From contig NC_087082.1 in the NCBI RefSeq assembly GCF_026151205.1, positions 18,011,401 through 18,075,400 on the forward strand: a stretch of DNA of 64,000 bases, in the 5' to 3' direction. This stretch comes from Bolinopsis microptera (lineage: Eukaryota > Ctenophora > Tentaculata > Lobata > Bolinopsidae). Each line of letters starts with the position of its first letter. Within the stretch, counting starts at the first letter, position 1. Below are positions 9,450 through 61,322 of this stretch, piece after piece. A program made the position numbers and the translations under genes. The notes under the pieces are model-generated. The model saw only the letters and a program-made list of their open reading frames with translations. It was not told the DNA's origin and searched no databases.

Positions 9450-15287
<5,838 letters not shown>

Positions 15288-38983: not shown

Positions 38984-39027
38984 TATTATGTCATGGGGGT
39001 GATTCGGAATTGAATCAGCGTCCGAAA

Positions 39028-39080
39028 ATACATCGATTCAAGTAGGTTTCAACTGTCTTTTAGAGTGATTTAGCACACTC
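39028..39080. repeat. Repeat fragment shared with 33028-33160
   Basis: GATTCAAGTAGGTTTCAACT followed by TGATTTAGCACACTCG. It is the unexpanded form of the copy at 33028. Confidence 0.55.
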
Positions 39081-39262
39081 GGTTTATTTTATTTACCAGA
39101 AAAATAACAACTTTTTGTTAATTAATATTAGAAGTTTAATCAAATAGTACAGTAAAACTTAAAATTGTAATTTACAAAACTTTCAGCTGAAAACGCACAA
39201 AACAAAAAATAAAACAGAAAACATGGTTTTAGCGCAGTTTACATGTTTTAATTTTACAAAAT

Positions 39263-39353
39263 TGTAAGTTTATAACCAACCAAGACGCGCACCGAGTTGG
39301 ACTTGTCGACGGTCTTTGAAAAAACATTTTACGATTATATCAGTGGTTAAATA
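39263..39353 (+). mobile_element. Interspersed palindrome-headed repeat, copy 4 (diverged)
   Basis: ACCAACCAAGACGCGCACCG followed by AGTTGGACTTGTCGACGGTC and TTTTACGATTATATCAGTGG. The same block order as the other three copies but more mutated, so it is an older insertion. Confidence 0.6.
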
Positions 39354-39797
39354 AAAAAAAGTACAGTTCTGACTTCTGTCTGTTAAACCAATCTGAATCA
39401 CAAATAAAAAATAATTTGCCATCATAACATTAACACATATAATAACACTAACAGGATTAATTCATTTTCAAAAAATTGTACCACTACCTCAACCTGACTA
39501 CCAGTACCAGGGTGACGACTAATGTTAGATTGCAATTGTTTTGATTACCTCAGGCTTTTGTGTTCATGAGCTGCACAGGACCAATTGAATATAAGGATAA
39601 TGGCAAGCTGAGCGCTTGTATCACGTTGCGACCCCCACTGCCCACGGTCGTTTCACTATCGTTCTGACGATACAGGGGGATCGGGAGCCGCGCACAACGT
39701 ATGACAACTGAGCGCCGCTCAATATTGTTTTGAGAGTTTTATGATAAAATAAAAACTACCTCAAGAATAAAATTAGCTCCAACATTAAAACAAGAAT

Positions 39798-40140
39798 AAA
39801 AATATGATCTATGATTTGAACCTTGCAGTTGCAAGTTGCAATCCCAGTTTATGTTTCACAGAGTCAATGCTCAAGGGTAAATTTGTTCAATGACTCTCAG
39901 ACAAGGACTAAGATCAATCTTAGTGTGATATGAGCCAGTAGATGTGTTGCAGATCACTTCCTTCGCGTTTTCGTTCATTAAGACAAGGTCTTCGTTAATG
40001 CACGTGACAACATATTTGTAGTCGTCGGATTCAGCAATTTCAACCTGAAAATAATATCCTTGACTCACTGAGTGTGGATAGAAAATGGACTAATCTGTAA
40101 GTCAAAGTGTAATCAATTCGAGAAGAAGAACATATTTATA
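39798..40140. repeat. 343-bp direct repeat flanking the Penelope-like insertion, left copy
   Basis: Near-identical to 43502-43844 (offset 3,704 bp). It contains a second copy of the terminal exon of the Ig gene with its acceptor and stop. The copies differ at AGAAGAAGAA versus AGAAGATTAA near the right edge. Confidence 0.9.
39871..40044 (-). pseudogene. Duplicated terminal exon of the Ig gene
   Basis: A 58-codon copy (VEIAESDDYKYVVTCINED ... CLRVIEQIYP, stop) of exon 43748-43575, preceded by an intact TTTTCAG acceptor. It lies on the far side of the Penelope-like insertion from the gene. The frame is unbroken, so it could still be spliced as an alternative last exon, but the nearer copy would be expected to be used. 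It is called a pseudo-exon because it has no body of its own. Confidence 0.75.
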
Positions 40141-40505
40141 GTTCTTTTATTCAAATTTCTGATTGTTTCTGAATAGACTCAGTGAAGACAAATTCTAATG
40201 GAAATAAATAGCTGAATAACGTATTGACATTTCTACGTCATACTCATATTCTGAAATAGTATTAATTCAATTATAACGATCAATATTCACATTAAAAATT
40301 TGACGACGAAATTTATTTCAAACAAAATATATAACTGTAAAATAGTTATCAACCGTAAATAGTTTTTAACGAAATCGGAGCAAATATGAACATAAAACTG
40401 ACAAAATTGGGCTCATCTGAAAATTAACGAATAGCGTGACGTTATACAGGAGATAAAAGATTAAAAGAGATAAAAGAATTAAACGAGAATATTACTATTT
40501 ACACG

Positions 40506-42521
40506 TCACTCAACTAAAAACTGTGTTAGATTGTTCAACTCTATTTTATCGTTGAGTGTTGGTTTATTTTCAACTAAAAATCGGGCTTCTTTAATCTTTC
40601 TGTTGATGAGTGATGTTCCTCTATCTACGATTTGAAGTTTAAGCTTTGGGGGGCCTTTGTGCTGAGGGTGACTTTCCCTGTAGTGCTTTGCTAGTGGCTT
40701 GTCTTCGTAAGATTTTGCTGTTGGATTTGCCGCACTACGGTAATGCTCGTCGAACCTGCACTTGATCGGTCTGTATGTTTCCCCACCATAGTTCTCGGTA
40801 CAATTGTCTACTTCGCAAGTGATGTGGTAGACGGTATTAGTTGTGGTGCATTCTCCATCGGTTAAAGCTGCGCATGTTCTGCAGTTTGATGTTGTACAGG
40901 ATTTCTTGTCAAGGGGTCTGGAGTCTGTAAGGAGATCCTTCAGTTTCCGTCCAGGTTTCTCGACAATTTTGATGGGGAGTCCACTATGTCTGACAGCATC
41001 TCTGTATTTGCGACTAGTAGCTTCGTTGACATAGGGTAGTTTGAGAATCGCTCCGGCTTGGTCTTTGTTCTGTACGTTCTGATTAATTCTCTTTCTACGT
41101 TTTCTCTTATTCTTTATGGTTTCTAAGACTCTATCAGTGTAGCCGTTGTTGATGAGAAGTTTATCTATCATCTTTTCTGAGTACTTCTCGTTTTCTCTGT
41201 TGTTAGAGACTGCCTCTGCGGTGTTGTACATACTCTCAACAGTAGCATTCTTTGTACGTGTTGTATGATGAGAGTTGTAGTGGAGGGTGAGTGGCTTTTT
41301 CTGTGGTTTTCTGTAGAGTCTAGAATGTACTATTCCATCTGAGTCGATCTTTATTTCCGTGTTGAGGAAGGGAACAAAGTCGTTCTGATTGTCAGGGTAG
41401 TCTACAGTTAGTTTGATAAGTTTGTCAGGATCTTGTTGTTCGATGAGGTTGCACAGTTGCTGAGCTTTTCGTCTGTTGGTGGTGGCTCCGTTTAGATCGT
41501 CGTAAAACCTGCTGTAGGTGGGCAGTGTTATCCTCAGGTCTACGTAGACTGAAAGTTTTTCCAGTTTCCACATTTTGACAGTAGCTAGTATAGGTGCAGG
41601 GTTGGTTCCCATGAACAATCCAAGAAGCTGTAGGTAGACTTGATTGTTGTAGACAAAATATGACTTTCCTAGGGTTGTCTCTAGTAGTTCTTGTAAATCA
41701 GAGAGATGGAGACCGTATGTACTGATTGACTGTCTATTTTCTTTGGCAAGTTCCATGACATCTTCTAGTGCTGTTAGTACGTTGATATTGGTGTATAAAG
41801 CTTCGACGTCTGCTGTAAAGAAAGTAAGACTCTTCAGATCATTTGGTGTGATGTTTCTAATCCTTCGAAGAAAATCGTGAGTGTTTTTCAAATGAGAAGG
41901 TACTAGATTCATCAGAGGATATAGGATGTGACAGACGAACCAAAGGATTTTGTGGAAAGGGGAGTTGCAGCCTGAAACAATAGGTCTAGTTTTCATTGTG
42001 TCAGGGTTAAGAGTCTTGATCTCATCACTTGTGTACTTGTGTGTTTTAAGCATCACTCTTGCAGTAGCGAGGGTGGTGTGATGGCTCATTAACAGGTTAG
42101 TAACATCTTGAGGGAGATTACGACTCTTGGCAATGTTCTTGAATGTTGAGTTAACATCGTCTTCTAGAGTTTTAGTTAACTTGTTTATGTACTTTTGTTT
42201 GCCCAGTTTATCCTGTGGTATGTCGATCTTCTTGTAGACGTTTCCATTGTTGAGGTGAGTTGTAGTTGTCCTGATATGACCTTCTTTAGGCATTACTACA
42301 AACTCTGCTGTTTTGTCAGCGACGGAAATTTGAAGGTCTTCATTTTTCTTCAGGTTTCTGAGGGCAGTTCGTTGTTTTGGAGTGAGATTGGGTGTGACTT
42401 GAGCTGTCTTGGTGATGTTGATCAGATCTCGTCGAAGTGCACCCAATTTGTTCTCGACGGTAGTGTCTGCTAGAGGTGGAGCACGAGTGTAAGTTTGCTC
42501 GAATGGTGCAATGTTCTTCAA
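40506..42521 (-). CDS. Penelope-like RT with C-terminal GIY-YIG endonuclease
   Basis: A 671-residue frame. RT motifs: MKTRPIVSGCNSPFHKI at about 176-192, FTADVEALYTNINV at about 235-248 with a catalytic Asp, GLFMGTNPAPILA at 301-313, and FYDD at 339-342. After a basic linker (KNKRKRRKRINQ) comes a Cys-rich GIY-YIG nuclease: VYHITCEVDNC (the GIY strand), ENYGGETYRPIKCRFDEH (the YIG strand, Arg helix and Glu/His). This is the canonical Penelope/Poseidon domain order. The frame is intact and all catalytic residues visible to me are present, so the copy may still be competent. The start is the first Met of the frame. Confidence 0.93.
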   Translation of the reverse strand: MKNIAPFEQTYTRAPPLADTTVENKLGALRRDLINITKTAQVTPNLTPKQRTALRNLKKNEDLQISVADKTAEFVVMPKEGHIRTTTTHLNNGNVYKKIDIPQDKLGKQKYINKLTKTLEDDVNSTFKNIAKSRNLPQDVTNLLMSHHTTLATARVMLKTHKYTSDEIKTLNPDTMKTRPIVSGCNSPFHKILWFVCHILYPLMNLVPSHLKNTHDFLRRIRNITPNDLKSLTFFTADVEALYTNINVLTALEDVMELAKENRQSISTYGLHLSDLQELLETTLGKSYFVYNNQVYLQLLGLFMGTNPAPILATVKMWKLEKLSVYVDLRITLPTYSRFYDDLNGATTNRRKAQQLCNLIEQQDPDKLIKLTVDYPDNQNDFVPFLNTEIKIDSDGIVHSRLYRKPQKKPLTLHYNSHHTTRTKNATVESMYNTAEAVSNNRENEKYSEKMIDKLLINNGYTDRVLETIKNKRKRRKRINQNVQNKDQAGAILKLPYVNEATSRKYRDAVRHSGLPIKIVEKPGRKLKDLLTDSRPLDKKSCTTSNCRTCAALTDGECTTTNTVYHITCEVDNCTENYGGETYRPIKCRFDEHYRSAANPTAKSYEDKPLAKHYRESHPQHKGPPKLKLQIVDRGTSLINRKIKEARFLVENKPTLNDKIELNNLTQFLVE

Positions 42522-42572
42522 ATGTTGTTTAAGCGTCTTAGTTGAGTTGGTGTTAGCGAATAACTCTTTCCA

Positions 42573-43104
42573 ACGCTATGTCAACGAAGCTACTAGTCGC
42601 AAATACAGAGATGCTGTCAGACATAGTGGACTCCCCATCAAAATTGTCGAGAAACCTGGACGGAAACTGAAGGATCTCCTTACAGACTCCAGACCCCTTG
42701 ACAAGAAATCCTGTACAACATCAAACTGCAGAACATGCGCAGCTTTAACCGATGGAGAATGCACCACAACTAATACCGTCTACCACATCACTTGCGAAGT
42801 AGACAATTGTACCGAGAACTATGGTGGGGAAACATACAGACCGATCAAGTGCAGGTTCGACGAGCATTACCGTAGTGCGGCAAATCCAACAGCAAAATCT
42901 TACGAAGATAAGCCACTAGCAAAGCACTACAGGGAAAGTCACCCTCAGCACAAAGGCCCCCCAAAGCTTAAACTTCAAATCGTAGATAGAGGAACATCAC
43001 TCATCAACAGAAAGATTAAAGAAGCCCGATTTTTAGTTGAAAATAAACCGACACTCAACGATAAAACAGAGTTGAACAATCTAACACAGTTTTTAGTTGA
43101 GTGA
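42573..43104 (+). pseudogene. Truncated inverted copy of the Penelope-like GIY-YIG C-terminus
   Basis: Encodes the last 177 residues of the neighbouring element (from YVNEATSRKYRDAVRHSGLP to LTQFLVE, stop) with a single K-I-E to K-T-E change near the end. No RT domain is present. The frame upstream of 42576 is unrelated junction sequence. Confidence 0.9.
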
Positions 43105-43501
43105 CGTGTAAATAGTAATATTCTCGTTTAATTCTTTTATCTCTTTTAATTTTTTATCTCCTGTATAACGTCACGCTATTCGTTAATTTTCAGATAAGCC
43201 CAATTTTGTCAGTTTTATGTTCATATTTGCTCCGATTTCGTTAAAAACTATTTACGGTTGATAACTATTTTACAGTTATATATTTTGTTTGAAATAAATT
43301 TCGTCGTCAAATTTTTAATGTGAATATTGATCGTTATAATTGAATTAATACTATTTCAGAATATGAGTATGACGTAGAAATGTCGATACGTTATTCAGCT
43401 ATTTATTTCCATTAGAATTTGTCTTCACTGAGTCTATTCAGAAACAATCAGAAATTTGAATAAAAGAACTATCAAATCATGAGACTCAAAAACACTACAC
43501 G

Positions 43502-43844
43502 AAAAATATGATCTATGATTTGAACCTTGCAGTTGCAAGTTGCAATCCCAGTTTATGTTTCACAGAGTCAATGCTCAAGGGTAAATTTGTTCAATGACTC
43601 TCAGACAAGGACTAAGATCAATCTTAGTGTGATATGAGCCAGTAGATGTGTTGCAGATCACTTCCTTCGCGTTTTCGTTCATTAAGACAAGGTCTTCGTT
43701 AATGCACGTGACAACATATTTGTAGTCGTCGGATTCAGCAATTTCAACCTGAAAATAATATCCTTGACTCACTGAGTGTGGATAGAAAATGGACTAATCT
43801 GTAAGTCAAAGTGTAATCAATTCGAGAAGATTAACATATTTATA
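43502..43844. repeat. 343-bp direct repeat flanking the Penelope-like insertion, right copy
   Basis: The copy attached to the Ig gene, holding its in-phase terminal exon. Between the arm end (43472) and this repeat lie 29 bp without a counterpart on the left side. Confidence 0.9.
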
Positions 43845-46800
43845 TTCAAGTTTTAAACTGAGCTTTGTACCTAATATTAGTATTACATCTGTATAAAACT
43901 GACCTTTTTCAAAAGTGTATTCGGAGGCGTACGAGGTGGTTTACAGCGTAGTTTGATCTTTAAGTTCGTCTCGTCAGTACTGAATTCGAATCCAGTCTCC
44001 AACTTGATCCTGATAGTGATATGATGGGCCTTTGAATAAATTCAAAATATAAGTTGCTTGGCAATGGCCTTGACGGCAAAAGAATTAATGAACAAATCAT
44101 GTATAATCAAGACGAAATTTAAAATACGCCGTTGAATGGATCATTCAGGGAATTTCTAAGCTAGCGCAGTTCGAATGACTTAAACCTGAAACTGTAATGA
44201 CCACCGTCACAAAAGTAAACGTCCTCTAAACGATGTGAGATTGTGTAGGGGCCCGATACTGCAGAGAAGTCTGGAAGGGATACTGGAATATTCTTATTCC
44301 CTTCTGAGAAAGATTTCATTATAGTTACAAAACACAATTAACTTTAATTCTGTAAGAAACATATGTACATGAACCGACTGTCTCTAAATTTGTTATGCGT
44401 TATTTTACTTTATTAATATTATCAATTTATTTATAGTGTTGCAGCCAGCCGCAGCTATACTAGGCCTTCTGACTTCTGTTAGTATTCTCGTAGAAGTTCA
44501 AACTGCGGAACCATACGTCCATACAAATTAAATTTCTTAAAAAATACCAATGAATGTGAATTGTAACCGAAAAAGTACAACAAAGTACAATAACAAACCT
44601 TTATAGTGAAGGAATACACTCGATGGCTTTATGTCTCCAAGGACTGACATTGTAAAGAATGCAGTCGACCTTTCAAAAACGGCCTTTACTTTTGAAATTG
44701 TTGCTTGAGCTGACTTAATGCATATCATGTCACATGTTTGCTGTTGACCCGAAAGGAAAATGACTGCTCTGTAGTCTGGAAAAATAAAAATAAAATTGAC
44801 AAATTCAAATATAAAAACTCATTTTTTAATTTAATTTTGCATTCTGGGTTAAAACTTTATTAACTTATAAAGATATTTTATTTAATGTTCGATATAATCA
44901 AATAGGTCAAGTGCCTGTGAGCTGTGTAGATACAACGTACATAGTAAACAATAAAATTATACTAATTTAATTATACCTAACATCCTAAAATTAAATTATT
45001 GAAGAACCTATCGCATTTTTATACCTGCAACATCGCTAGAAGTCAATCTCTGAATGAAGAGTTTGGTAGACATCACACCTTTATCATCGATTGGAGAGAT
45101 AAGTGTACGGTACTGCCACTGGTGATCCGATGGAAGACTTTCCCAATTTATTGACCCTCCATCTTGAAGTGATTATTAAAGTTTTTCAGTTTTGATCATT
45201 CAAAAAGTATTATCATTAAAAAATTACTAACATGTAACTACGAACATAATTACTAATGTTGACTTAGATAACGCTTATTTACTTCTTTTCTGCCATGTGA
45301 TCCTGACGTCGGATAAGTCTCTGGCAGTGAAATAAGTTGTCAAAATGGCTGGTCGTCCCACTGTTGCCAAAACTGGTGTTATGACAACTGCTTCACCTAA
45401 ACGACGAGAAAGTTTACAAATGATATCCCAGAAAAAAGACATATATAAATATCAGTATTACTCGAATTCCTTTATATTGTATCAATTATGATAGTATTCA
45501 TAATATTATTAATCATGCAAATCAATATATTATTTATTTCGTTATTCGAATCTTTCTTTGATTATGGAACACAATATTGCAGGGAAATAATCGGAGACCG
45601 ATCGTGAAAGTGTAGAAAATTAAATTATTGATGGAAATATCGAGTGGGAATCATTTTGAGGGCGTTGTGTCATTTTCCAAAGCATTAGGTAGAAAAGTTC
45701 AAAATAGTGTAGTGCTGTAGGAACACAGAAATACTTGCCGAGCAACGAAAATTTCACTGTAACTGTAAGAGATTCTTGGACTGAATTCTGAATCCGAACT
45801 GAGTAATCACAAGTACCATGTTGTGAAACTAAATCATCTTTTGAGCGGGAGCCTCCTTCTATCATAGAATCAGAACTGAAAATAATTGAATCAATGATTT
45901 AATCACCCCTCCTACCCTCCCCCCCCCCCCTTCCCTATAAGATAATTAGGGAGGAATAATGCATCATAACACATACTTCATCAGCCTTAAATCAACTTAG
46001 GTTAATTGTGTCCGTAAAAACGAAAGTAGGATGGAAGCTATTTTGTTTACTGATAAATAATTTTAATCTTAACTTTTACTTTCTAAAGATGTTCTCACCT
46101 GCGAATGTGATAAACTTCGGTGAAGATTAACCCATCGGCTGAGATTTTTGAATCTGTCGATTTACTAACAGAGTTGACCTGAGATATCGATAGTTAGAAT
46201 TCAGTGTTATGTCTAGAACCTACGATCTTCACGAATGGTAGAACAAATGAAGCATGCCAGAAAATTTGTTTGAAATAATTAATTCTCACTCACAAGATCA
46301 AGAGAGCAATCCAAATTCCTTGACAGCGGTGCTGAAGGTGCATGAGTTATGAAAGTCACCAAAGCTCCTGTATCTGGAGTCAGAACTATTAAATCGAGGT
46401 CACTGTCTATCCTTATTTCGTTCAGATGACTCATTGGTGTATTAACGATTTGTCCTGGGTTCGAGAGTTTTTTTTAGTTAACAAAACTTTGAGGTTCTGC
46501 GTAGAGGTCATAAATCTTTAACTGACATGTTTCCACTTTAAAATGCTTTTATTTTTAATGAACTAATTTTAAAGGAAGCCTGTCTGAGAATTTCTTTCTT
46601 TACCTGAGCTGTACTGGGCCCGACAATAAAGATTTCCAACAGCTGCTGTGGAGTGAGCAACTATGATTTTCCACTGGACTTTTGTAGTGCCATAAACTTT
46701 CTCCATCATTTTGAAGATGATAACATCATGGTGCTTATTATAGGTAAAACCTTTATTGTTTACAAACTTGCCATCCAACTTCCACCTTCGTGTTTTGACA

Positions 46801-49074
46801 TTTTTAGTAAACATCGTATTATGATTTACCAGGACATTTAATTTGGATAGAAGTGAAATATAGATATATCTATCATGAAATTCTGGTAACCAGCATGAAA
46901 ACAAGCCACAATGTTTGGTCCATAATTTGTAAATGAGATTATTATGACTCACAAAATATTTTCCAATTAACTCTTCAGGCTGTCTAAGGCCTAAGCTCAT
47001 AGCATAAACTTACCGCAAATTATTCAAAATAGAATTAGTCATGTTAAATGGTACGGAACAGGTGACTTCTGATTCAGTCCCTGAAATGCCCCACACAGAA
47101 TTGGGATATTGAGTCCCACTGACATTCACTCCAATCAAAATCACTTGGTTGCTCTGTAGAATTCGCTCTGCGATATGTGAGTTGTCAGTGTTATTCACGG
47201 ATATGTAAACAAATGAAAATCTCTATTTTCAGTGAAATAATGTTTATACCATATAATTGCTGCACTCTGCAAAAACAGAATAGTATATAATTGACAAAAT
47301 TAAGCTTACTGCTCGTTGTTTCTGTGTAAAAGGATCTCCAGGCCCCAACTGTAGAGTTGCTTACAATGATGCTGATTACGGAGGTCTTTGGGGTGTTGAT
47401 AATATCCCTATGAGTAAAACATTTGAACAATGTTTGTAGTTAAATTCAAATCAGTTTATTTGTTATTTGATAGATATGGGTTAAAAACTATTTCAGTACA
47501 GCAAAATCCGCAGTAAAAGAAAAATACCTGCAAGTTTTAGTCAAACACAGAGAGTCATTGTGCTTCCACCAAAAGTGTCCATCAGCAAACGAGAAGAAGA
47601 AATAAGAAGATTTCAGGTTGACTGTTGCTCCGTTGAAAGCTCTTATCTCTTGTTCTGGTGTCAGCGCTAAACCTGTTGGTGGATGCTATTACATATATTG
47701 AAACTCTTGAGATGATCACACAATGTGCACTACCTAGTCGGTTTTAAAATTTACGGTCACAATAAAAAATAAACGCGCTCACGAACGAAGAGTGCATAAA
47801 TTTTATCATGCATATTCATAGCTCACAATTTAAACCGTTCAGAATCAGATAATTTTCAATGAAATATTCTTTATACTCTTACTTGTCAAATAAATCGTTT
47901 TTGAAATCGATAGTGAATACAACCGACTTATTTAAATCATTCTACGCCTCGACTGAGTCTAATAACAAAAAAAGGATGCAATGTCTCTTTGATTTGTAAT
48001 CTTGTTTCGAAATTAGGATGAAATATTATAATCTGTTGATTTAGATTACCATCGGTTTCTATTTTAACTTCCGAGTAAAAGTTATACTCTTGACCATGGG
48101 CGAAGACTATGCAAGTGTAAGAAGCAACTTCGTTGGGAGGGTCTAATCGTAAAATTGTTGTTGTTGTACTATTTTGTAAGGTTTCTTTTCTTGTCTCTGC
48201 AAAAAAAGTTAAAATGTTATATACGATATAATATTGATATCAATATTTACATAAGGGGGCACCAATGACCAAGCTCAAAGTAGTATTTCATAGAGTTACA
48301 CAAAAACTTGGAATTTAACCTTCAAATATAGTATTTTGGTGTGACCAAGCAACTATCAATGTGTCGGTAGGAAAGATCACAGTACACTTCAATACTGCTG
48401 GGTCTCCTGTTCTAACAAAATCATCGGTTGTACTGAAATAAGAAGTTGAATTAAATGGAAATTTAGGAAAATTGGAGTAGTTCAAAATTTAATACAACGA
48501 TATGAATATGATTGGTTGAATGGAGATTTCGGTTTAAGAAGGTATTATTTAATTCTACGAATTCTTTTATTTGCGCAATATTAAATAAGATTTTTGAACT
48601 ACATTATTAAACGTACCGAACTGTGAAGGTCTTCAGAAGCACCGAGGTATCATCATATTGATCTTTTTCTCCTACTGAAATCCTACATGTGAATAGTTGA
48701 TCGCCTAACAAAGTCACGTCAGCTAAAAGGATCATAGTCGACTCCTTCATCCCATCCATTAGTGCTCCATCACTGATCAATTGAAGGAGTAAGTAATCCA
48801 ACAACATCTACATTTTGCAACAAATTATAAAATAGCGATACATCATATATTTGTATTAGGATCTCAAATCTTCTATCATTTCAATTATCTGTATATTCCA
48901 GTAATATAAAAGATTACCTGACAGTCAAGTCAGAAATGTCTGAATCATGAGAGAAAAGTGTTCCTTTGTTGTCCACCCACTGAATATGTATCAGATTGGC
49001 AGCTGATCCTTTTATTGAACAAGTCAACGTTGATGCAGTACCTGCTAGCACGTCATAGCTTTTCACCCTTATCT
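43575..49074 (-). CDS. Diverged 3' portion of the Ig gene (17 exons)
   Basis: Exons (high-low): 49074-48918, 48772-48617, 48432-48320, 48196-48050, 47672-47528, 47407-47310, 47167-47014, 46785-46604, 46454-46294, 46178-46099, 45875-45739, 45396-45283, 45162-45025, 44775-44599, 44303-44186, 44009-43904, 43748-43575. Phases match at every junction. Several Ig-like domains are split: STLTCSIKG...IHIQW with DQLFTCRIS; AVLKCTVIF...IVAWSH with VASYTCIVF; SEVTCSVPF with GNLYCRAQY. Exon 45875-45739 ends at a GC donor (G|GCAAGT). The acceptors at 46785 and 44009 were chosen by phase and have weak pyrimidine tracts. The last two exons contain a Cys-containing basic stretch (KLRCKPPRTPPN), then a TCINEDLV segment. 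Confidence 0.8.
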
Positions 49075-52000
49075 CTGAAATTAATACATCCAAATATAAA
49101 ACAATTTGCAGTTACTTAAAATACTACAATTTATGATTTATAATCCACGATGATTTTTTGCTGCAAGATTCCAATACGTCCTTAAATAAATAACTGTATT
49201 GCAAAATGAGTAATGACACTGTTTGGCATTTCAAGAACATACCATAAACGTTTAGATTGACGGTGGTATCCGAGTGGCTGAAATTAGGTAATGAACCGGA
49301 AGTGACTCTGCAAGAGTAGGCAGTATCTTCGTTGACAAGGGTCCCGTCTACAGCAAGAGTTGATGTCTGTCTCCCTCCAGAGTGGCTTCCTTGGACAGGG
49401 GTGAACTTTTCAGCTGGAACTGGTCCCGTACTAGTCCGCCAAGTTACTGTTGCTGTTTCAATAATTCCAGTGATAACACAGGATATCGATGTGCTAGAAC
49501 CTTTCTTTGCTTCTTTGTTAACTGGTTCAACGTCTGAAGTAAGTTTTGGTAAATGTATATTTACAAATTTATAACTCTCGAATAATATAAATATGTTTTT
49601 GTTCTTATAATGACATCAATTGAAAGTTTGTTGTAAGACAAAAAATCGTATGGATACAAAAATTTGCCTTGCAAAATAACTTCACTTTCAGTTATGGAGG
49701 TTAAAGAACATACCATAAACGTTTAGATTGACAGTGGTATCAGAGAAATTGGAATCAGGTAAAGATCCGGAAGTGACTCTGCAAGTGTAGGCAGTATCTT
49801 CGTTGACAAGAGTTCCATCTACGGCAAGAGTTGATGTCTGTGTGCCTGCAAAGTTACTTCCTTGGGTAGGGACGAGCTTATCGCCTGGAACAGGTCCTGT
49901 ACTTGTTCGCCAAGTCACTAGTGCTGTTTCTGTTATGCCAGTGATGATACAAGAAATCGTTGCGTAAGAGCCTTTCTTCACTTCTGTGTTAACTGATTCA
50001 ACGTCTGAAATGAGTTTTGGTACATTTACAAATTCTACAATTTATAACCGACGGATCATGAAATCATTTTCTTGTACTGATGTGAATTGGAATATAGAGG
50101 AAGGATAGAAATTCGTTCATGAATCGAAAAATTGATTGTAAGATTTATACTGCATTAGCGTTTGAAGAACATACCATAAACGTTTAGATTGACAGTGGTA
50201 TCAGAGAAGTTGGAATCAGGTAAAGATCCGAAAGTGACTCTGCAAGTGTAGGCAGTATCTTCGTTGACAAGAGTTCCTTCTACAGCAAGAGTTGATGTCT
50301 GTGTCCCTGCAGAGTTACTTCCTTGGACAGGGGTGAACTTTTCAGCTAAAACTGGTCCTGTACTAGTTCGCCAGGTCACTGCTGCTGTTTCTGTTATGCC
50401 AGTGATGATACAAGAAATCGTTGCGTAAGAGCCTTTCTTCACTTCTGTGTTAACTGATTCAACGTCTGAAATGAGTTTTGGTACATTTACTAATTCCACA
50501 AATAATAATAATAATAACATAATAATAACAAAGTATTTATATCCCGCTCATATTAGCAACTAGTAACCAAGAATGGTACTAGCTACTAATGTCAGAGCGG
50601 CTGTCCAAACAAAGATAAAACTTTAATAATTTAGAATTCTCCAACAAAAAATTCTCAATTTCCTTTAAACCGCTTATTAGTAACACTAACGTCTAAAAAC
50701 TATATTATACGACAGACATGGTGGTACAATCAGACATCAGATGGAATAAACTATAAGAGAAAAATAATAATCTCGACACATAATGGTTACATTTATTTAT
50801 TCAAAAGAATTTAATTAATTGAACTTCATTATACACTCTTCTTTATTTGGAGATCAAAACAACAAACACAAACTGAGGCCTGCATCCCCGTCAATACCAC
50901 ACAATCATTTAATGAGTTGCTCAAGGTAGTAGACCAGGCCGACGGATCCCCAGTCCGATTTCCCTGAGTATTGTCGCACCCAATTAAGGGAACTCGCACA
51001 CTACATCACCCTGTACCCAACAGCTTGCAAGCAAGCTGCCGTTCACCCACCGGTTCACTGAGGTACAGGTAGATTGCCGAAGCATGTGCTACCAACTCTG
51101 CAATCATGTGGTACTGGCCAAAGATACAGGTTTATAAAAATAAAAAATAAAAACAAGCCAGGGCATGGCAAATGGCAGTCTAGTCTCTCCGGACTCCGTG
51201 TAAGTGTAACTATACACACAACTCATGACAGTTAAAAAATCCCATGGAATAATCTACAAACTAAGGCCAGGTTCTAGGAACTTTCTAAAAAAGAACACAA
51301 ATATAAATACGACTAGGTATGTTTATGATTATTGAAAAAATGGGTTTTTAAAGCCCGTTTAAAAGTATCAATGTTGTTAGCTTTTCTTACCGTATACGGT
51401 AGCAAGTTCCAGAGTTTTGGGGCTGCGTTGCTAAACCTCTTATCACCTAGCCTGATTTTACTGGGTCTACTAACCTTAAACCTTAAGTCATCACCAGACA
51501 GTTGCCGTGTTTTAGAATATGCTGCCTGGGAGTCAATCTGAAGAAGTTCAGACAGATATGGTGGTGCTTGGCTGTACATAACCTTATACGCCAGAAGACA
51601 AATCTTGAAACTTATTCGTTCTTCAATGGGGAGAATGTGTGCTTTTTTGTAGTATTCAAGAAGATCTACATCACGGTCATCGATGTTATAGATGAATCGT
51701 ATTCCAGCATTCAGTACAGATTTGAGCTTTTTCAGTGACTTTATCGGTAGGCAAACATACAGTGCATTACAGTAGTCAAGCTTCGATATAACCAGTTGCT
51801 TCACTAGCATAACTTTTAAACTTTCATCAAGATAACATCGTATTCTCTTCAGATTAGTTAATGCCCACATTGACTTCTGTTTAACATTGTTTAGCTGTCT
51901 TTCCATGGTAAGAGCTGGGTCTAGTTTGACTCCTAAACTCTTCCAATTGTCACCGACACATTCTGTTGGCATCACTTCCTACTCCCAAAATTAACAGAAA

Positions 52001-55000
52001 TTTGATTCTGTCCAAATTCTCTAAGAACCAAAGGCTTCCCAATGACTAGTAGCTCTGTTTTTGACTCATTAAGTTTCATATAATTTTCAAGCATCCAGGC
52101 CCTTATTTCATCAAGGCAGGCATTGATCTTAATTTTCATTTCACTTAGTTCTCCAGGTATTAGGGGTTCAAAAGAAATGTAGAGCTGCGAGTCATCTGCA
52201 TATTATAGCTGAATACGAATACCATATTTAGCAGCTATCTTCTGAAGTTGTTTAATGTACAGGATGAACAGAATCGGTCCAAGCAAAGATCCCTGAGGCA
52301 CTCCAAAAAGAAGACACATTACATCAGATACCTCCTGACCAACTTTGACATTGAACGATCTTGCATGAAGATAATCCTCAAACCAGCTGTTAGCTTTACC
52401 TGTGATTCCAAAATCAGCTAAGAGTTTTCTGATAAGTATCTTATGATCTATTGTGTCGAAAGCTGCTGAAAGGTCTAGCAGGACCAGTGTCACAATTCTA
52501 CCCTGCTCAATTTCCCCAAGAATGTCATCAGTCATTTTCACTAATAAAGTTTCACAGCTATGTTTTGGTCTATAACCAGACTGAACTGGACAATGAAGAT
52601 TTTCTGCATCCAAGTATTCGTTGAGTTGACTGAGTACGTACTTTTCAAGGATTTTGGACATAACCGGGAGATTTGAAACTGGTCTATAGTTTTTTAGACA
52701 GTCAGGATCTGCTCCATCCTTTTTGAGGGTGGGTCTGACCACTGCTCTCTTAAGATCTGATGGAAACTTAGCAGTTTCAATGGAAAGGTTGACGATGTAG
52801 CAGAGAAATGGTGCTAGTTCTTTAATGCAGTGTTTCAGGAGAAACATGGGTATTGGATCTAAGTCACAGAACTTATTTGACATACTTTTCACCAGGGTTT
52901 CCATCTCGGACACTTCTACTGCTTTAAAAGTCTCTAACTTTGACTCCTTTTTATCACCTCTTGGGTTTTCCTGGGGTTCGGCCGGTACATCACGAAGGTT
53001 TTCAATTGAGGACCGGATGTTTTCCACTTTTCCAGAAAAGAAAGCTTTTAGATCATCTGCAACTTCCTTGGGATTTCCAGATGGCATACTTGTTTGAGAA
53101 TTACCCAACAAGCGATTGACTTTCTTGTAAAGGGATTTAATATCACCTGATGAAGCTGTGATAGAGTTTCTATAACATCCCTTTCTTTTTTCAAACTCCA
53201 TACCCTGAAGTTTATCCCGAAGTCCTACGTACGCTGATTTAAGTCCTTTTCCAGACCTCCAAGCTCTCTTTGCTCTTCTTCTCTTTCTTCTCACTTCTCT
53301 CAGCTCTTCATCAATCCAGGGAGTTTCATTAGCTTTCACTTTCCTGTCCACTCCTGGGCAATGGGTGTCCATAAGGCTCGAAAGAACCTCATTGTACTGT
53401 GTAACAGCTTCGTCTAGTGACCAGTCAAAGTTTCCTTGGCACAGAGATGAGTTCTTCAAACTTTCTCTAAAAATGTTTTTGTCAAGATCTTTAAAATTTC
53501 GGTAATTGACCTTTTTCCAAATCATCTTGGGTTTCTTACCGCAGTGATACTCCAAATCAAAATGAACCAGAAAGTTGTCGGATAGTTGTTCCTGATTTGG
53601 TCACAGAAACTGGGCCCATTCTGGACCTAAGGTTTTCTGTAGAGAGTATAAGGTCAATTGTACCACCTTGTTCATGCGTTGGTACAATAGGCATGATTTG
53701 ATAAAGGTCAAATTCTACAATTTATAACCGACGGATCATCAAATCAATTCCTTGTATGCTGATGTAAATTGGAATATGGAGGAAGGATAGAAATTCGTTC
53801 ATGAATCGAAAAATGGATTGCAAAATAACTGCATTAGCGTTTAAAAAACATACCATAAACGTTCAGATTGGCAGTGGTATCAGAGAAGTTGGAATCAGGT
53901 AAAGATCCGGAAGTGACTCTGCAAGTGTAGGCAGTATCTTCGTTGACAAGAGTTCCGTCTACGGCAAGAGTTGATGTCTGTGTCCCTGCAGAGTAACTTC
54001 CTTGGACAGGATTGAACTTTTCAGCTGGTACTGGTCCTGTACTAGTTCGCCAGGTCACTGCTGCTGTTTTTGTTATGCCAGTGATGATACAAGAAATTGT
54101 TGCGTAAGAGCCTTTCTTCACTTCTGTGTCAATTGATTCAACGTCTGAAATGAGTTTTGGTACATTTACGAATTCGCCAAATTCTACAATTTATAACCGA
54201 CGGATCATCAAATCAATTCCTTGTAAACTGATGTAAATTGGAATATGGAGGAAGGATAGAAATTCGTTCATGAAGCGAAAAATGGATTGCAAAATAACTG
54301 CATTAGCGTTTAAAGAACATACCATAAACGTTCAGATTGACAGTGGTATCAGAGAAGTTGGAATCAGGTAAAGATCCGGAAGTGACTCTGCAAGTGTAGG
54401 CAGTATCTTCGTTGACGAGAGTTCCGTCTACAGCAAGAGTTGATGTCTGTGTCCCTGCAGAGTTACTTCCTTGGACAGGAGTGTACTTTTCAGCTGGAAC
54501 TGGTCCTGTACTAGTTCGCCAGGTCACTGCTGCTGTTTCTGTTATGCCAGTGATGATACAAGAAATTGTTGCGTAAGAGCCTTTCTTCACTTCTGTGTTA
54601 ACTGATTCAACGTCTGAAATGAGTTTTGGTACATTTACAAATTCTACAATTTATAACCGACGGATCATCAAATCAATTCCTTGTAAACTGATGTAAATTG
54701 GAATATGGAGGAAGGATAGAAATTCGTTCATGAATTGAAAAATGGATTGCAAAATTACTTCATTAGCGTTTAAAGAACATACCATAAACGTTCAGATTGA
54801 CAGTGGTATCAGAGAAGTTGGAATCAGGTAAAGATCCGGAAGTGACTCTGCAAGTGTAAGCAGTATCTTCGTTGACGAGAGTTCCGTCTACAGCAAGAGT
54901 TGATGTCTGTGTCCCTGCAGAGTTACTTCCTTGGACAGGAGTGAACTTTTCAGCTGGAACTGGTCCTGTACTAGTTCGCCAGGTCACTGCTGCTGTTTCT

Positions 55001-58000
55001 GTTATGCCAGTGATGATACAAGAAATCGTTGCGTAAGAGCCTTTCTTCACTTCTGTGTTAACTGATTCAACGTCTGAAATGAGTTTTGGTACATTTACAA
55101 ATTCTACAATTTATAACCGACAGATCATGAAATCATTTTCTTGTACTGATGTGAATTGGAATATGAAGGAAATAGGAATGATAGAAATTCGTTCATGAAT
55201 CGAAAAATAGATTGTACGATTTATACTGCATTAGCGTTTGAAGAACATACCATAAAGGTTCAGATTGACAGTGGTATCAGAGAAGTTGGAATCAGGTAAA
55301 GATCCGGAAGTGACTCTGCAAGTGTAGGCAGTATCTTCGTTGACGAGAGCTCCGTCTACAGCAAGAGTTGATGTCTGTGTCCCTGCAGAGTTACTTCCTT
55401 GGACAGGAGTGAACTTTTCAGCTGGAACTGGTCCTGTACTAGTTCGCCAGGTCACTGCTGCTGTTTCTGTTATGCCAGTGATGATACAAGAAATTGTTGC
55501 GTAAGAGCCTTTCTTCACTTCTGTGTTAACTGATTCAACGTCTGAAATGAGTTTTGGTACATTTACAAATTCTACAATTTATAACCGACGGATCATCAAA
55601 TCAATTCCTTGTAAACTGATGTAAATTGGAATATGGAGGAAGGATAGAAATTCGTTCATGAATTGAAAAATGGATTGCAAAATTACTTCATTAGCGTTTA
55701 AAGAACATACCATAAACGTTCAGATTGACAGTGGTATCAGAGAAGTTGGAATCAGGTAAAGATCCGGAAGTGACTCTGCAAGTGTAAGCAGTATCTTCGT
55801 TGACGAGAGTTCCGTCTACAGCAAGAGTTGATGTCTGTGTCCCTGCAGAGTTACTTCCTTGGACAGGAGTGAACTTTTCAGCTGGAACTGGTCCTGTACT
55901 AGTTCGCCAGGTCACTGCTGCTGTTTCTGTTATGCCAGTGATGATACAAGAAATCGTTGCGTAAGAGCCTTTCTTCACTTCTGTTATAACTGATTCAACG
56001 TCTGAAACGAGTTTTGGTACATTTACAAATTCTACAATTTATAACCGACAGATCATGAAATCATTTTCTTGTACTGATGTGAATTGGAATATGGAGGAAA
56101 TAGGAATGATAGAAATTCGTTCATGAATCGAAAAATAGATTTTACGATTTATACTGCATTAGCGTTTGAAGAACATACCATAAACGTTCAGATTGACAGT
56201 GGTATCAGAGAAGTTGGAATCAGGTAAAGATCCGGAAGTGACTCTGCAAGTGTAAGCAGTATCTTCGTTGACGAGAGTTCCGTCTACAGCAAGAGTTGAT
56301 GTCTGTGTCCCTGCAGAGTTACTTCCTTGGACAGGAGTGAACTTTTCAGCTGGAACTGGTCCTGTACTAGTTCGCCAGGTCACTGCTGCTGTTTCTGTTA
56401 TGCCAGTGATGATACAAGAAATCGTTGCGTAAGAGCCTTTCTTCACTTCTGTGTTAACTGATTCAACGTCTGAAATGAGTTTTGGTACATTTACAAATTC
56501 TACAATTTATAACCGACAGATCATGAAATCATTTTCTTGTACTGATGTGAATTGGAATATGAAGGAAATAGGAATGATAGAAATTCGTTCATGAATCGAA
56601 AAATAGATTGTACGATTTATACTGCATTAGCGTTTGAAGAACATACCATAAAGGTTCAGATTGACAGTGGTATCAGAGAAGTTGGAATCAGGTAAAGATC
56701 CGGAAGTGACTCTGCAAGTGTAAGCAGTATCTTCGTTGACGAGAGTTCCGTCTACAGCAAGAGTTGATCTCTGTGTCCCTGCAGAGTTACTTCCTTGGAC
56801 AGGAATGAACTTTTCAGCTGGAACTGGTCCTGTACTAGTTCGCCAGGTCACTGCTGCTGTTTCTGTTATGCCAGTGATGATACAAGAAATTGTTGCGTAA
56901 GAGCCTTTCTTCACTTCTGTGTTAACTGATTCAACGTCTGAAATGAGTTTTGGTACATTTACAAATTCTACAATTTATAACCGACGGATCATCAAATCAA
57001 TTCCTTGTAAACTGATGTAAATTGGAATATGGAGGAAGGATAGAAATTCGTTCATGAATTGAAAAATGGATTGCAAAATTACTTCATTAGCGTTTAAAGA
57101 ACATACCATAAACGTTCAGATTGACAGTGGTATCAGAGAAGTTGGAATCAGGTAAAGATCCGGAAGTGACTCTGCAAGTGTAAGCAGTATCTTCGTTGAC
57201 GAGAGTTCCGTCTACAGCAAGAGTTGATCTCTGTGTCCCTGCAGAGTTACTTCCTTGGACAGGAGTGAACTTTTCAGCTGGAACTGGTCCTGTACTAGTT
57301 CGCCAGGTCACTGCTGCTGTTTCTGTTATGCCAGTGATGATACAAGAAATCGTTGCGTAAGAGCCTTTCTTCACTTCTGTTATAACTGATTCAACGTCTG
57401 AAACGAGTTTTGGTACATTTACAAATTCTACAATTTATAACCGACAGATCATGAAATCATTTTCTTGTACTGATGTGAATTGGAATATGGAGGAAATAGG
57501 AATGATAGAAATTCGTTCATGAATCGAAAAATAGATTTTACGATTTATACTGCATTAGCGTTTGAAGAACATACCATAAACGTTCAGATTGACAGTGGTA
57601 TCAGAGAAGTTGGAATCAGGTAAAGATCCGGAAGTGACTCTGCAAGTGTAAGCAGTATCTTCGTTGACGAGAGTTCCGTCTACAGCAAGAGTTGATCTCT
57701 GTGTCCCTGCAGAGTTACTTCCTTGGACAGGAGTGAACTTTTCAGCTGGAACTGGTCCTGTACTAGTTCGCCAGGTCACTGCTGCTGTTTCTGTTATGCC
57801 AGTGATGATACAAGAAATCGTTGCGTAAGAGCCTTTCTTCACTTCTGTGTTAACTGATTCAACGTCTGAAATGAGTTTTGGTACATTTACAAATTCTACA
57901 ATTTATAACCGACAGATCATGAAATCATTTTCTTGTACTGATGTGAATTGGAATATGAAGGAAATAGGAATGATAGAAATTCGTTCATGAATCGAAAAAT

Positions 58001-60677
58001 AGATTGTACGATTTATACTGCATTAGCGTTTGAAGAACATACCATAAAGGTTCAGATTGACAGTGGTATCAGAGAAGTTGGAATCAGGTAAAGATCCGGA
58101 AGTGACTCTGCAAGTGTAGGCAGTATCTTCGTTGACGAGAGCTCCGTCTACAGCAAGACTTGATGTCTGTGTCCCTGCAGAGTTACTTCCTTGGACAGGA
58201 GTGAACTTTTCAGCTGGAACTGGTCCTGTACTAGTTCGCCAGGTCACTGCTGCTGTTTCTGTTATGCCAGTGATGATACAAGAAATTGTTGCGTAAGAGC
58301 CTTTCTTCACTTCTGTTATAACTGATTCAACGTCTGAAACGAGTTTTGGTACATTTACAAATTCTACAATTTATAACCGACGGATCATCAAATCAATTCC
58401 TTGTAAACTGATGTAAATTGGAATATGGAGGAAGGATAGAAATTCGTTCATGAATTGAAAAATTGATTGCAAAATTACTTCATTAGCGTTTAAAGAACAT
58501 ACCATAAACGTTCAGATTGACAGTGGTATCAGAGAAGTTGGAATCAGATAAAGATCCGGAAGTGACTCTGCAAGTGTAAGCAGTATCTTCGTTGACGAGA
58601 GTTCCGTCTACAGCAAGAGTTGATGTCTGTGTCCCTGCAGAGTTACTTCCTTGGACAGGAGTGAACTTTTCAGCTGGAACTGGTCCTGTACTAGTTCGCC
58701 AGGTCACTGCTGCTGTTTCTGTTATGCCAGTGATGATACAAGAAATCGTTGCGTAAGAGCCTTTCTTCACTTCTGTGTTAACTGATTCAACGTCTGAAAT
58801 GAGTTTTGGTACATTTACAAATTCTACAATTTATAACCGACAGATCATGAAATCATTTTCTTGTACTGATGTGAATTGGAATATGGAGGAAATAGGAATG
58901 ATAGAAATTCGTTCATGAATCGAAAAATAGATTTTACGATTTATACTGCATTAGCGTTTGAAGAACATACCATAAACGTTCAGATTGACAGTGGTATCAG
59001 AGAAGTTGGAATCAGGTAAAGATCCGGAAGTGACTCTGCAAGTGTAAGCAGTATCTTCGTTGACGAGAGTTCCGTCTACAGCAAGAGTTGATGTCTGTGT
59101 CCCTGCAGAGTTACTTCCTTGGACAGGAGTGAACTTTTCAGCTGGAACTGGTCCTGTACTAGTTCGCCAGGTCACTGCTGCTGTTTCTGTTATGCCAGTG
59201 ATGATACAAGAAATCGTTGCGTAAGAGCCTTTCTTCACTTCTGTGTTAACTGATTCAACGTCTGAAATGAGTTTTGGTACATTTACAAATTCTACAATTT
59301 ATAACCGACAGATCATGAAATCATTTTCTTGTACTGATGTGAATTGGAATATGAAGGAAATAGGAATGATAGAAATTCGTTCATGAATCGAAAAATAGAT
59401 TGTACGATTTATACTGCATTAGCGTTTGAAGAACATACCATAAACGTTCAGATTGACAGTGGTATCAGAGAAGTTGGAATCAGGTAAAGATCCGGAAGTG
59501 ACTCTGCAAGCGTAAGCAGTATCTTCGTTGACGAGAGTTCCGTCTACAGCAAGAGTTGATGTCTGTGTCCCACCAGAGTTACTTCCTTGGACAGGAGTGA
59601 ACTTTTCAGCTGGAACTGGTCCTGTACTAGTTCGCCAGGTCACTGCTGCAGTTTCTGTTATGCCAGTGATGATACACGAAATCGTTGCGTAAGAGCCTTT
59701 CTTCACTTCTGTGTTAACTGATTCAACGTCTGAAGTGAGTTTTGGTACATTTACAAATTCGACAAATTCTACAATTTATAACCGACGGATCATCAAATCA
59801 ATTCCTTTTAAACTGATGTAAATTGGAATATGGAGGAAGGATAGAAATTCGTTCATGTATTGAAAAATGGATTGCAAAATTACTGCATTAGCGTTTAAAG
59901 AACATACCATAAACGTTCAGATTGACAGTGGTATCAGAGAAGTTGGAATCAGGTAAAGATCCGGAAGTGACTCTGCAAGTGTAAGCAGTATCTTCGTTGA
60001 CAAGAGTTCCGTCTACAGCAAGAGTTGATGTCTGTGTCCCTGCAGAGTTACTTCCTTGGACAGGAGTGAACTTTTCAGCTGGAACTGGTCCTGTACTAGT
60101 TCGCCAGGTCACTGTTGCTGTTTCTGTTATGTCAGTGATGATACACGAAATCTTTGCGTAAGAGCCTTTCTTCACTTCTGTGTTAACTGATTCAACGTCT
60201 GAAGTGAGTTTTGGTATATTTACTAATTGTACAATTTATAACCAATGGATCATCAAAACAATTCCATTAACTGATTTGGATTAGAATATGGAGATTGTGC
60301 AACGCCATCAACCGAAGGAAAAGTAATTTAAAACTTATACCGCTAAAATCGCATTTATAGCTTTACCACGGCTTAATATAACCATAATTAGTAAATGCTA
60401 TGATAAAGACGGGTGTATTTCATGAGTCTTTTATATAGAAGATGGGGTAAAAGCATTCATTTATGAATCAATTTTTGCATCAATATCTTATGAACACAAT
60501 ATTTCAAAAAGCTTTTTTGTCAACTTTTTTAGAATGGTGGAAAATTATAAATAGAAATTAGTCTATGATATAAAATTGTACCTAGACTGATGAGTTCTAT
60601 ATCTCTTCCGATGATAACTATCTCACGTACCCAGAGATAGCTATAAGAAGCATAACCCCCTTTAATAACTACTGTGT
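43575..60677 (-). CDS. Large multi-Ig-domain gene (5' end missing in gap)
   Basis: Reading 3' along the minus strand I could chain 34 exons with consistent phases: a partial exon 60677-60582, seventeen 291-bp Ig exons (60198 down to 49243), then seventeen diverged exons to the stop at 43575. Each array domain has the Ig pattern: Cys in TISCIITG, Trp in VTWRTSTG, and EDTAYTC. All array exons are phase 1-1, the class usual for shuffled extracellular domains. No signal peptide is seen because the 5' end is in the 60678-60777 gap. No transmembrane helix is visible before the C-terminus (CLRVIEQIYP), so a secreted or matrix protein, or attachment by other means, is possible. I do not recognise an orthologue. 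An adhesion or recognition role is inference from domain type only. Confidence 0.82.
49243..50465 (-). repeat. Ig-domain exon units 15-17 of the array (diverged end)
   Basis: Exons 50465-50175, 50004-49714 and 49533-49243, each 291 bp and phase 1-1. They are the most diverged units in the array at its 3' end: the last has GSHSGGRQTS and GSLPNFSHSD in place of GSNSAGTQTS and GSLPDSNFSD, and its introns differ. They are cut off from the rest by a LINE insertion at 50502-53709. Confidence 0.9.
50502..53709 (-). mobile_element. CR1/L2-clade LINE inserted in an Ig-array intron
   Basis: Its 5' end falls at about 53709, within the last part of the endonuclease domain, and its 3' end has an (ATT)n tail (AATAATAATAATAAT at 50502-50516 on the plus strand). 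Array-intron sequence resumes on both sides, with the motif AAATTCTACA at the right border and a diverged form at the left that may be a target-site duplication. About 0.8 kb of 3' UTR (50520-51310) separates the ORF from the tail. Confidence 0.88.
51313..53555 (-). pseudogene. LINE reverse transcriptase, broken by a stop and frameshifts
   Basis: Frame 53555-52203 holds the linker and RT: KNYRPVSNLPVMSKILEKYV, LDLSAAFDTIDH (catalytic Asp), GVPQGSLLGPILF. A TAA at about 52204 sits directly before the catalytic YADD, which continues in the same frame. A further shift near 51980 leads into frame 51975-51313 (LVISKLDYCNALYVCLP, then the C-terminal region typical of CR1/L2). A third shift near 53560 separates the endonuclease remnant (PTHEQGGTIDLIL; SDNFLVHFDLEY). 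It is a dead copy. Confidence 0.9.
53854..60198 (-). repeat. Tandem Ig-domain exon array, 14 units with higher-order structure
   Basis: Exons (high-low): 60198-59908, 59729-59439, 59261-58971, 58793-58503, 58333-58043, 57865-57575, 57397-57107, 56937-56647, 56469-56179, 56001-55711, 55541-55251, 55073-54783, 54613-54323, 54144-53854. All are 291 bp (97 codons), acceptor TTTCAG|ACGTTGAATC, donor TTTATG|GTATGTTC (TTTAAG variants none). Domains differ at only a few residues (T/I/Y after AEKF or AEKY; TQTS or TQRS; NLNVY or NLNLY). Introns come in three types: A (169 bp), B1 and B2 (177 bp). Each type recurs every 1,396 bp: B2 at 55074, 56470, 57866, 59262; B1 at 56002, 57398, 58794; A at 55542, 56938, 58334, 59730. 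Confidence 0.95.
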
Positions 60678-60777
60678 NNNNNNNNNNNNNNNNNNNNNNN
60701 NNNNNNNNNNNNNNNNNNNNNNNNNNNNNNNNNNNNNNNNNNNNNNNNNNNNNNNNNNNNNNNNNNNNNNNNNNNNN
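60678..60777. other. Assembly gap (100 N)
   Basis: Interrupts the 5' region of the Ig gene. Long near-identical arrays next to it are a likely cause of assembly failure, so the number of Ig units may be underestimated. Confidence 0.95.
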
Positions 60778-61049
60778 TCAGAAATATCAGGAATACCTAC
60801 ATGAATAACTGAAAGATAATCATTTATCAGAAAGGCAAGCAATAATCAACTTATAAATGGAATGAATGTCATTATCATTACTTAATACTTTAAAACATTA
60901 TTTAAAGCATATAGATGATGTGATAGATTTGTATTAACAGAATCTATAAAAAGAACAGGTAATATAACGTAGTGATGTGGTAGAATTAGTAACATCATAA
61001 TTAGTAACATCCTAATTAGTAAGCTCCAAAGTTAACCAGCTAGAATTAC

Positions 61050-61297
61050 CTTGCACCCGTTCCCAGAACAACACCCACACTGCACATTCCACCAGACTTC
61101 TGACTTGAAGCCACGTGCAATCCATTGGAAAGCTTAGTTATCTGGGTTGCTTTAGAAAAAGCAGTGTTGATGTCTTCTGGTTTGAGAGATGCTACCCCAG
61201 GAAAAGGCTGGTCTAATGGAGGATGTCCAGTGACGCCTAATCCCCGCGGGATCAGGGAACTGAGAGAGCGGTTGAATACCTTCAAACCAGCTCTCAT
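61050..61297 (-). CDS. PMPCA: Mitochondrial processing peptidase alpha subunit, exon 1
   Basis: ATG at 61297 to a GT donor at 61049 (AG|GTAATT, phase 2), 82 complete codons. The N-terminus (MRAGLKVFNRSLSSLIPRGL) is rich in Arg, Ser and Leu without acids, as expected for a mitochondrial presequence. It is followed by PLDQPFPGV and TKLSNGLHVASSQKSGGMCS then VGVVLGTGAR, which match the N-terminal strand of MPP-alpha (family form: TxLxNGLRVAS...VGxxxxxGSR). MPP-alpha is the non-catalytic, substrate-binding partner of MPP-beta in the matrix. Later exons should lie at lower coordinates, but only the Ig gene is found there; they may be lost in the 60678-60777 gap, or the join may be wrong. Paralogy with UQCRC2 is less likely given the residues seen. 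Confidence 0.82.
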
Positions 61298-61322
61298 ATC
61301 CCTTTTTGAGCTGTTCTTCTAG

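Follow-up and report, generated by a model that had tools for sequence, protein, structure and literature searches.

In the 64,000-nucleotide stretch of the ctenophore Bolinopsis microptera analysed here (the window, C11:18011401-18075400 in a genome of 264,652,675 bases in 232 contigs), the minus strand carries a tandem array of near-identical immunoglobulin (Ig) exons. This array is probably the repeat section of one gene of a large family, a coding domain variable number tandem repeat (VNTR) grown by block duplication, unequal exchange and exon-centred gene conversion, with its units presumably joined into a rod that may serve recognition or adhesion. In the proposed course, three-exon blocks of 1,396 bp were duplicated in tandem. 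Unequal exchange would have remade the middle of the array, some end units keeping partners in a neighbouring array, and exon-centred gene conversion would have carried sequence between units. Selection would have kept the Ig fold, with residues 39-54 free to vary between two cassettes. All units would be spliced into one long extracellular Ig rod presenting or spacing a binding module at the N terminus, and alleles would vary in length and in the order of their cassettes. Given the domain make-up, adhesion, or recognition of self or microbes, is the likeliest reading of its role. The window array is called W below (W1 for exons 1-14, W2 for exons 15-17) and the neighbouring locus B.

An array of 291-bp exons in 1,396-bp blocks

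Exactly 14 exons of 291 bp apiece lie at 53854-60198, each preceded by AG, followed by GT, free of in-frame stops and in phase 1 at both borders (1-1). Three more follow beyond a 3,388-bp intron holding an element of the long interspersed nuclear element (LINE) type, so that the window array totals 17 units.

59908-60198, 59439-59729, 58971-59261, 58503-58793 and 58043-58333, minus strand: tandem Ig-domain exons 1-5
57575-57865, 57107-57397, 56647-56937, 56179-56469 and 55711-56001, minus strand: tandem Ig-domain exons 6-10
55251-55541, 54783-55073, 54323-54613 and 53854-54144, minus strand: tandem Ig-domain exons 11-14
55711-59729, minus strand: three full 1,396-bp three-exon repeats (exons 2-4, 5-7 and 8-10), the last intron of the third copy lying just below 55711
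54783-55541, minus strand: truncated fourth block, exons 11 and 12, minus one 468-bp unit (spacings 468 and 460)
50500-53720 (ends approximate), minus strand: LINE-type insertion on the gene's strand in intron 14/15, with open reading frames (ORFs) at 52203-53600 and 51313-51978
50175-50465, minus strand: array exon 15, 291 bp
49714-50004, minus strand: array exon 16, 291 bp, with the second sequence cassette (VPGDKLVPTQGSNFAG)
49243-49533, minus strand: array exon 17, 291 bp, an end unit, nearest to an end unit of array B

The first 14 exons start 469, 468, 468, 460, 468, 468, 460, 468, 468, 460, 468, 460 and 469 bp apart. Their introns fall into three classes (177, 177 and 169 bp) that recur in order, giving 468 + 468 + 460 = 1,396 bp, and the three complete blocks differ pairwise at 20, 15 and 9 positions (98.6-99.4% identity). 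Tandem Repeats Finder places 14.2 copies between 53709 and 60293 (score 11195). Exons 1-14 are mutually 94.5-100% identical, and the DNA of exons 3, 9 and 12 is the same throughout. The first-pass annotation had described the fourteen phase 1-1 exons, the 1,396-bp recurrence of three intron variants (A, B1 and B2) and a unit missing between 54614 and 55542; all of this was recovered, the missing unit being the 468 bp gone from the block that follows the complete ones. Its count of 14 exons is correct, but its end of the array at 53854 is not, since exons 15-17 lie beyond the LINE-type insertion. The symmetric phases do mean, as it stated, that gain or loss of a unit keeps the frame. Within the insertion, ORF 52203-53600 matches reverse transcriptase (RVT_1, 6.8e-21) in Pfam, and ORF 51313-51978 has no Pfam match.

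An alternative upstream acceptor (GTAG/AATTT, which adds 30 bp to the exons) was rejected because it is missing in 3 of the 17 units, while TTCAG/ is present in 17/17. Downstream exon a, listed below, starts at the same acceptor type, and in paralog G3 a stop immediately precedes it. Some doubt attaches to the choice, because the final 30 columns of the intron alignment are more conserved than its remainder and, in 65 of 67 introns, the frame is open for at least 12 codons ahead of the acceptor.

How the array changes

Growth through duplication of three-domain blocks, proposed in the first-pass annotation, is supported by the block comparison. Its proposal of recent exchange draws support from the same comparison together with the exon tree, the cross-array matches and the differences between introns and silent sites. 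Among introns 2-12, classes A and B (B1 and B2) differ by 8.6% (403/4,676; 28 pairs) compared with 2.2% (94/4,176) at silent sites of the flanking exons; the corresponding values are 1.5% and 1.7% for B1 against B2 (12 pairs), and 0.31% and 1.1% within a class (15 pairs). Introns are thus as conserved as exons, as had been claimed, within a class and between B1 and B2, but not between A and B. Exon 5 is a mosaic: it has Leu 96, like exons 8 and 11 of its own class, together with Ile 6, which also occurs in exons 7 and 10, two of the four A-class exons. This mosaic and the contrast between introns and silent sites are expected if tracts of exon sequence are transferred between units more often than intron sequence.

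Each of W units 3-13 has its best match inside W, and mutual best matches between the arrays are found for W1_01/B_01, W1_14/B_15 and W2_03/B_17; the best B unit for W2_02 is B_04. The synonymous divergence (dS) inside W1, 0.030, is lower than the 0.045 between the 3' exons of W and B, and therefore much of the middle appears to have been remade after the two split. Identical units three apart also occur in B (B_09 and B_12), although mean identity there is little higher at three units (0.901) than at one (0.894). In array D likeness is greatest at a distance of four units (0.937), and in array H no period stands out in the unit-distance comparison.

One gene or two haplotypes

The window is interrupted by three N runs, each exactly 100 long, and the array lies on a contig between two of them.

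37971-60677, no strand: contig between two 100-N runs, collinear with locus B (C11:18116021-18144389)
60678-60777, no strand: run of exactly 100 N, taken as a scaffold gap

The collinearity with B extends from 337 bp inside the left end of the contig to its very right end, with 95.7-99.4% identity (about 96%) outside the array, 92.5% in the longest array alignment, and some insertions confined to one of the two copies. Neither gap is crossed by a match of 250 bp or more. W has 17 units and B 18, of different composition.

A contig so flanked and so collinear has the appearance, in sequence, of an unpurged second haplotype, which it may well be, and this is the main caution of the analysis. We give even weight to the window copy being no separate gene at all, the 22.7-kb contig then being the other haplotype of B, falsely duplicated, and the differences between W and B allelic. 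Besides the flanking gaps, the collinearity and the absence of matches of that length across them, the position on one scaffold speaks for this, as gaps separating duplicated pairs on a single scaffold are given as a mark of false duplication in the available text of PMC9516828. Real tandem duplicates can look alike, however, about 4% non-coding divergence would be high heterozygosity, and the two stretches stand 44 kb apart on the scaffold. The assembly risk raised in the first-pass annotation is therefore real but takes another form than the one foreseen, and the case warns that an assembly can easily miscount arrays of this kind. Should W and B be alleles, one individual would carry 17 and 18 units of differing composition, which would be direct evidence for length polymorphism; should they be paralogs, these data would instead document turnover between genes. 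As B is possibly the other allele, the unequal counts lend indirect support to length variation.

At 39798-43847 the contig carries an insertion absent from the collinear B locus, with two inverted arms of about 906 bp (40131-41037 and 42573-43481, 99% identical) and a 347-bp direct repeat on both sides. Its 689-aa ORF (40506-42575) has no Pfam family above the cut-off; it looks Penelope-like.

A large family with a conserved fold and a variable segment

Allowing up to 3 mismatches, a 25-mer from the exon is found in 324 places across the genome, compared with 0 for the reversed control. All 86 units examined (84 identified by rule and two whose ends were set later) are 291 bp long, open and followed by a GT donor, and all 86 keep C19, W32 and C75. 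The unit has an Ig sandwich with cysteines in strands B and F and the core tryptophan in strand C, as in the Ig superfamily. One array unit scanned against Pfam matches C1-set, Ig_3, I-set and ig, with no V-set match at 0.01, and titin domains are among its fold matches.

Over all pairs of the 86 units, the ratio of nonsynonymous to synonymous differences per site (pN/pS) is 0.40 overall and 0.23 outside residues 39-54; selection on the protein is thus visible between arrays, which goes beyond the exchange that the first-pass annotation had put forward. For residues 39-54 the ratio is 1.08, the pairs being non-independent and the value without a significance test, and diversifying selection on this segment is not claimed as proven. 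The corresponding rate ratio (dN/dS) across the nine 3' exons is 0.42 for B3, 0.35 for G3, 0.35 for H3 and 0.32 for J3 (exons a-d only). W1 and H differ by 20.5% in introns and 9.6% in exons, with a dS of 0.19. Within the repeat, exons have more variable sites than introns (19/873 compared with 3/523, p 0.024; without edge unit 2, 12/873 compared with 3/523, p 0.19), an excess that is not claimed as selection.

Two cassettes dominate residues 39-54, which a modest structure model places between strands C and E. AE is found at residues 41-42 in 48 units (as in VPAEKFTPVQGSNSAG), GD in 32 (as in VPGDKLVPTQGSYSDG) and other residues in 6, and a few units mix both cassettes. The first cassette is present in all 14 W1 units and the second in exon 16. 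On a tree built without the segment, which is weakly supported, the cassette changes at least 11 times, and therefore seems to move between backgrounds.

These observations bear on the possibility that the array is a structural spacer, setting only the length of the rod and taking no part in recognition, with a drifting variable segment. The near-identity of the middle units, the constraint on the rest of the domain and the titin domains among the fold matches would all suit it. The clustering of replacements in one segment, the two cassettes common to arrays on different contigs and the repeated cassette changes on the segment-free tree do not, and we regard a spacer as possible but the less likely account. 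At the other extreme, W and B could be two alleles of one highly variable locus in one animal, and the family a recognition system in which a long, recombining chain of two interchangeable Ig cassettes carries the specificity; the number and order of cassette-bearing domains, written by exon-centred conversion, would then label the individual. We hold this reading to be improbable.

A choice of exons as in Dscam, in which exons are mutually exclusive, would make the units alternatives, with one or few per transcript. Equal length in 17/17 units and symmetric phases would allow it, but it would add little because the first 14 exons are so nearly alike (94.5-100% identical, exons 3, 9 and 12 entirely so), and we consider it very unlikely. 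A satellite or pseudogene array that has lost its coding function is in our view also very unlikely, for although exons and introns of the window array are highly identical and a retrotransposon sits inside it, 86/86 units are open and of a single length, the splice sites are kept, and the ratios outside the segment (0.23) and in the 3' exons (0.32-0.42) point to constraint.

The arrays of the family differ in their N-terminal modules, which are lectin-like, SRCR or TSP1. At C11:19008513-19011590 (L044), upstream of an Ig array, four SRCR exons spaced 0.6-1.1 kb apart are 82-92% identical to an SRCR exon of D; SRCR is here a second domain type tandemly multiplied in the family. On another contig (G000:C13:996065-1009533), matches to the Ig-exon pattern about 465 bp apart lie first on one strand and then on the other, forming two arrays of opposite orientation.

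Gene context

At least nine conserved exons lie 3' of the array, four of which pair into two Ig-like domains. Their ends were set at AG/GT sites in stretches conserved at other loci.

60582-60677, minus strand: 3' part of a lectin-like (F5/8-C-like) exon, with a phase 1 donor that fits the array; the 5' part is lost in the N run
48918-49074, minus strand: downstream exon a, first half of an Ig-like domain (a and b joined: PF00047 9e-4, under the cut-off)
48617-48772, minus strand: downstream exon b, second half of the a+b Ig-like domain
48320-48432, minus strand: downstream exon c, first half of an Ig domain (c and d joined: PF00047 1.7e-6, over the cut-off)
48050-48196, minus strand: downstream exon d, second half of the c+d Ig domain
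47528-47672, minus strand: downstream exon e, conserved in B3, G3 and H3
47014-47167, minus strand: downstream exon g, conserved in B3, G3 and H3
46604-46785, minus strand: downstream exon h, conserved in B3, G3 and H3
46290-46454, minus strand: downstream exon i, conserved in B3, G3 and H3
45283-45396, minus strand: downstream exon l (tentative ends), conserved in B3, G3 and H3

Exon phases are compatible from array exon 17 through a, b, c, d and e, and in a separate chain through g, h and i; the ends of exon f and of exons j, k, l and m are uncertain. Upstream, the frame at 60582-60677, intron included, is identical at 40 of 48 residues (83%) to a paralog ORF preceding array C (L040:980-1522). 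The Pfam test used this paralog ORF, the window piece being 32 codons. It resembles F5/8-C and NedA-like binding domains under the Pfam cut-offs (PF22633, 19.6 compared with 27.8 bits; PF00754, 14.2 compared with 28.2) and has no match at 0.1 in a PDB sequence search, and the exon is named only lectin-like because of these two results.

A diverged lectin-like ORF (32% identical, E 6e-12) lies on the same strand at C11:18093228-18093665 (L033), about 21 kb upstream of the window array. Near the lectin-like exons upstream of arrays B and C (C11:18146282-18158502, L038-L040), three leader-like hydrophobic stretches, two of them frameshifted, may represent gene starts in decay or else a spurious call. 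At 61046-61318, minus strand, an ORF resembles the N-terminal part of mitochondrial processing peptidase alpha or complex III core protein 1 (best PDB E 0.0043); it was not adopted as part of the Ig gene, since it lies across the N run. Elsewhere the window contains a 52-bp tandem repeat (20446-23143, 52 copies, 95% matches), a 769-aa open frame with reverse transcriptase (10742-13051, minus strand, RVT_1 1.9e-16) and a 790-aa open frame on the plus strand (34060-36432) with no Pfam match at 0.01, presumably a reverse-transcriptase relative.

Several points weigh against the proposed account. Joint splicing of the units is a prediction from genomic sequence. Units 15 and 16 are slightly nearer to W (0.874 and 0.864) than to B (0.851 and 0.860), unit 2 is nearer to B_07, a W unit ties for unit 1, and B_15 resembles B_07 marginally more than it does its W partner. 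Support is weak for 50 of the 78 inner branches of the exon tree. Constraint within W1 alone is weak (dN/dS 0.56 across its units), and the compared 3' exons of the paralogs contain one stop and 6 gap bases in H3, 2 gap bases in G3 and 3 in J3. No signal peptide was found for the window gene, whose 5' end lies across the gap, and a leader-like peptide near array C was discarded as a family signal peptide, being frameshifted in 2 of 3 copies. Five hydrophobic stretches within 37971-44800 were considered as membrane anchors, none backed by conservation or splice sites.

Comparison with known systems

The array consists of tandem near-identical domain exons with their introns, in which copy changes are frame-neutral, as in a coding domain VNTR. 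Among systems worked out in detail, the human LPA kringle IV type 2 (KIV-2) VNTR comes closest; for it the available text of PMC7613587 gives exons 98-100% identical, unit types A, B and C with more than 100 intronic differences, LINEs in introns and about 40 alleles. Both systems repeat whole-domain exons with their introns, have unit classes and carry LINE insertions. In LPA, however, the domain is a kringle of two exons in units of about 5.5 kb, compared with an Ig domain in one 291-bp exon and units of 460-470 bp here, and LPA is one gene with about 40 alleles, whereas the present family occupies 324 places and is known from one assembly.

Functional candidates, for comparison only, are the Alr proteins of Hydractinia, with V-set and I-set domains, and the fuhc and fester proteins of Botryllus, with one to three Ig domains, both tied to allorecognition (PMC11999971, PMC12065747). 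They are likewise clustered, diversified Ig-superfamily genes in animals without antibodies, but an array of near-identical Ig exons is not described for them in the accessible parts of these sources. Dscam shares tandem Ig exons inside a gene (PMC11999971, available text). Its alternatives are diverged and chosen, whereas the window exons are near-identical and most simply joined. A literature search, with most subscription papers outside its reach, returned no description of such an array.

The repeat regions of titin and nebulin and the long repeats of complement receptor 1 form long rods of repeated domains with higher-order repeats; what sets them apart from the window array is the type of domain, the place in the cell and the size of the family. 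Most discussion of coding domain VNTRs such as LPA takes one gene at a time. In this single genome there are hundreds of highly similar Ig exons, spread over many arrays that differ in their N-terminal modules, and the data separate block duplication, unequal exchange and exon-centred conversion. The family is a testable candidate for the way in which an animal could produce heritable receptor variety. Taken together, the known part is a coding domain VNTR of the LPA KIV-2 type, and the unusual part is the size of the family.
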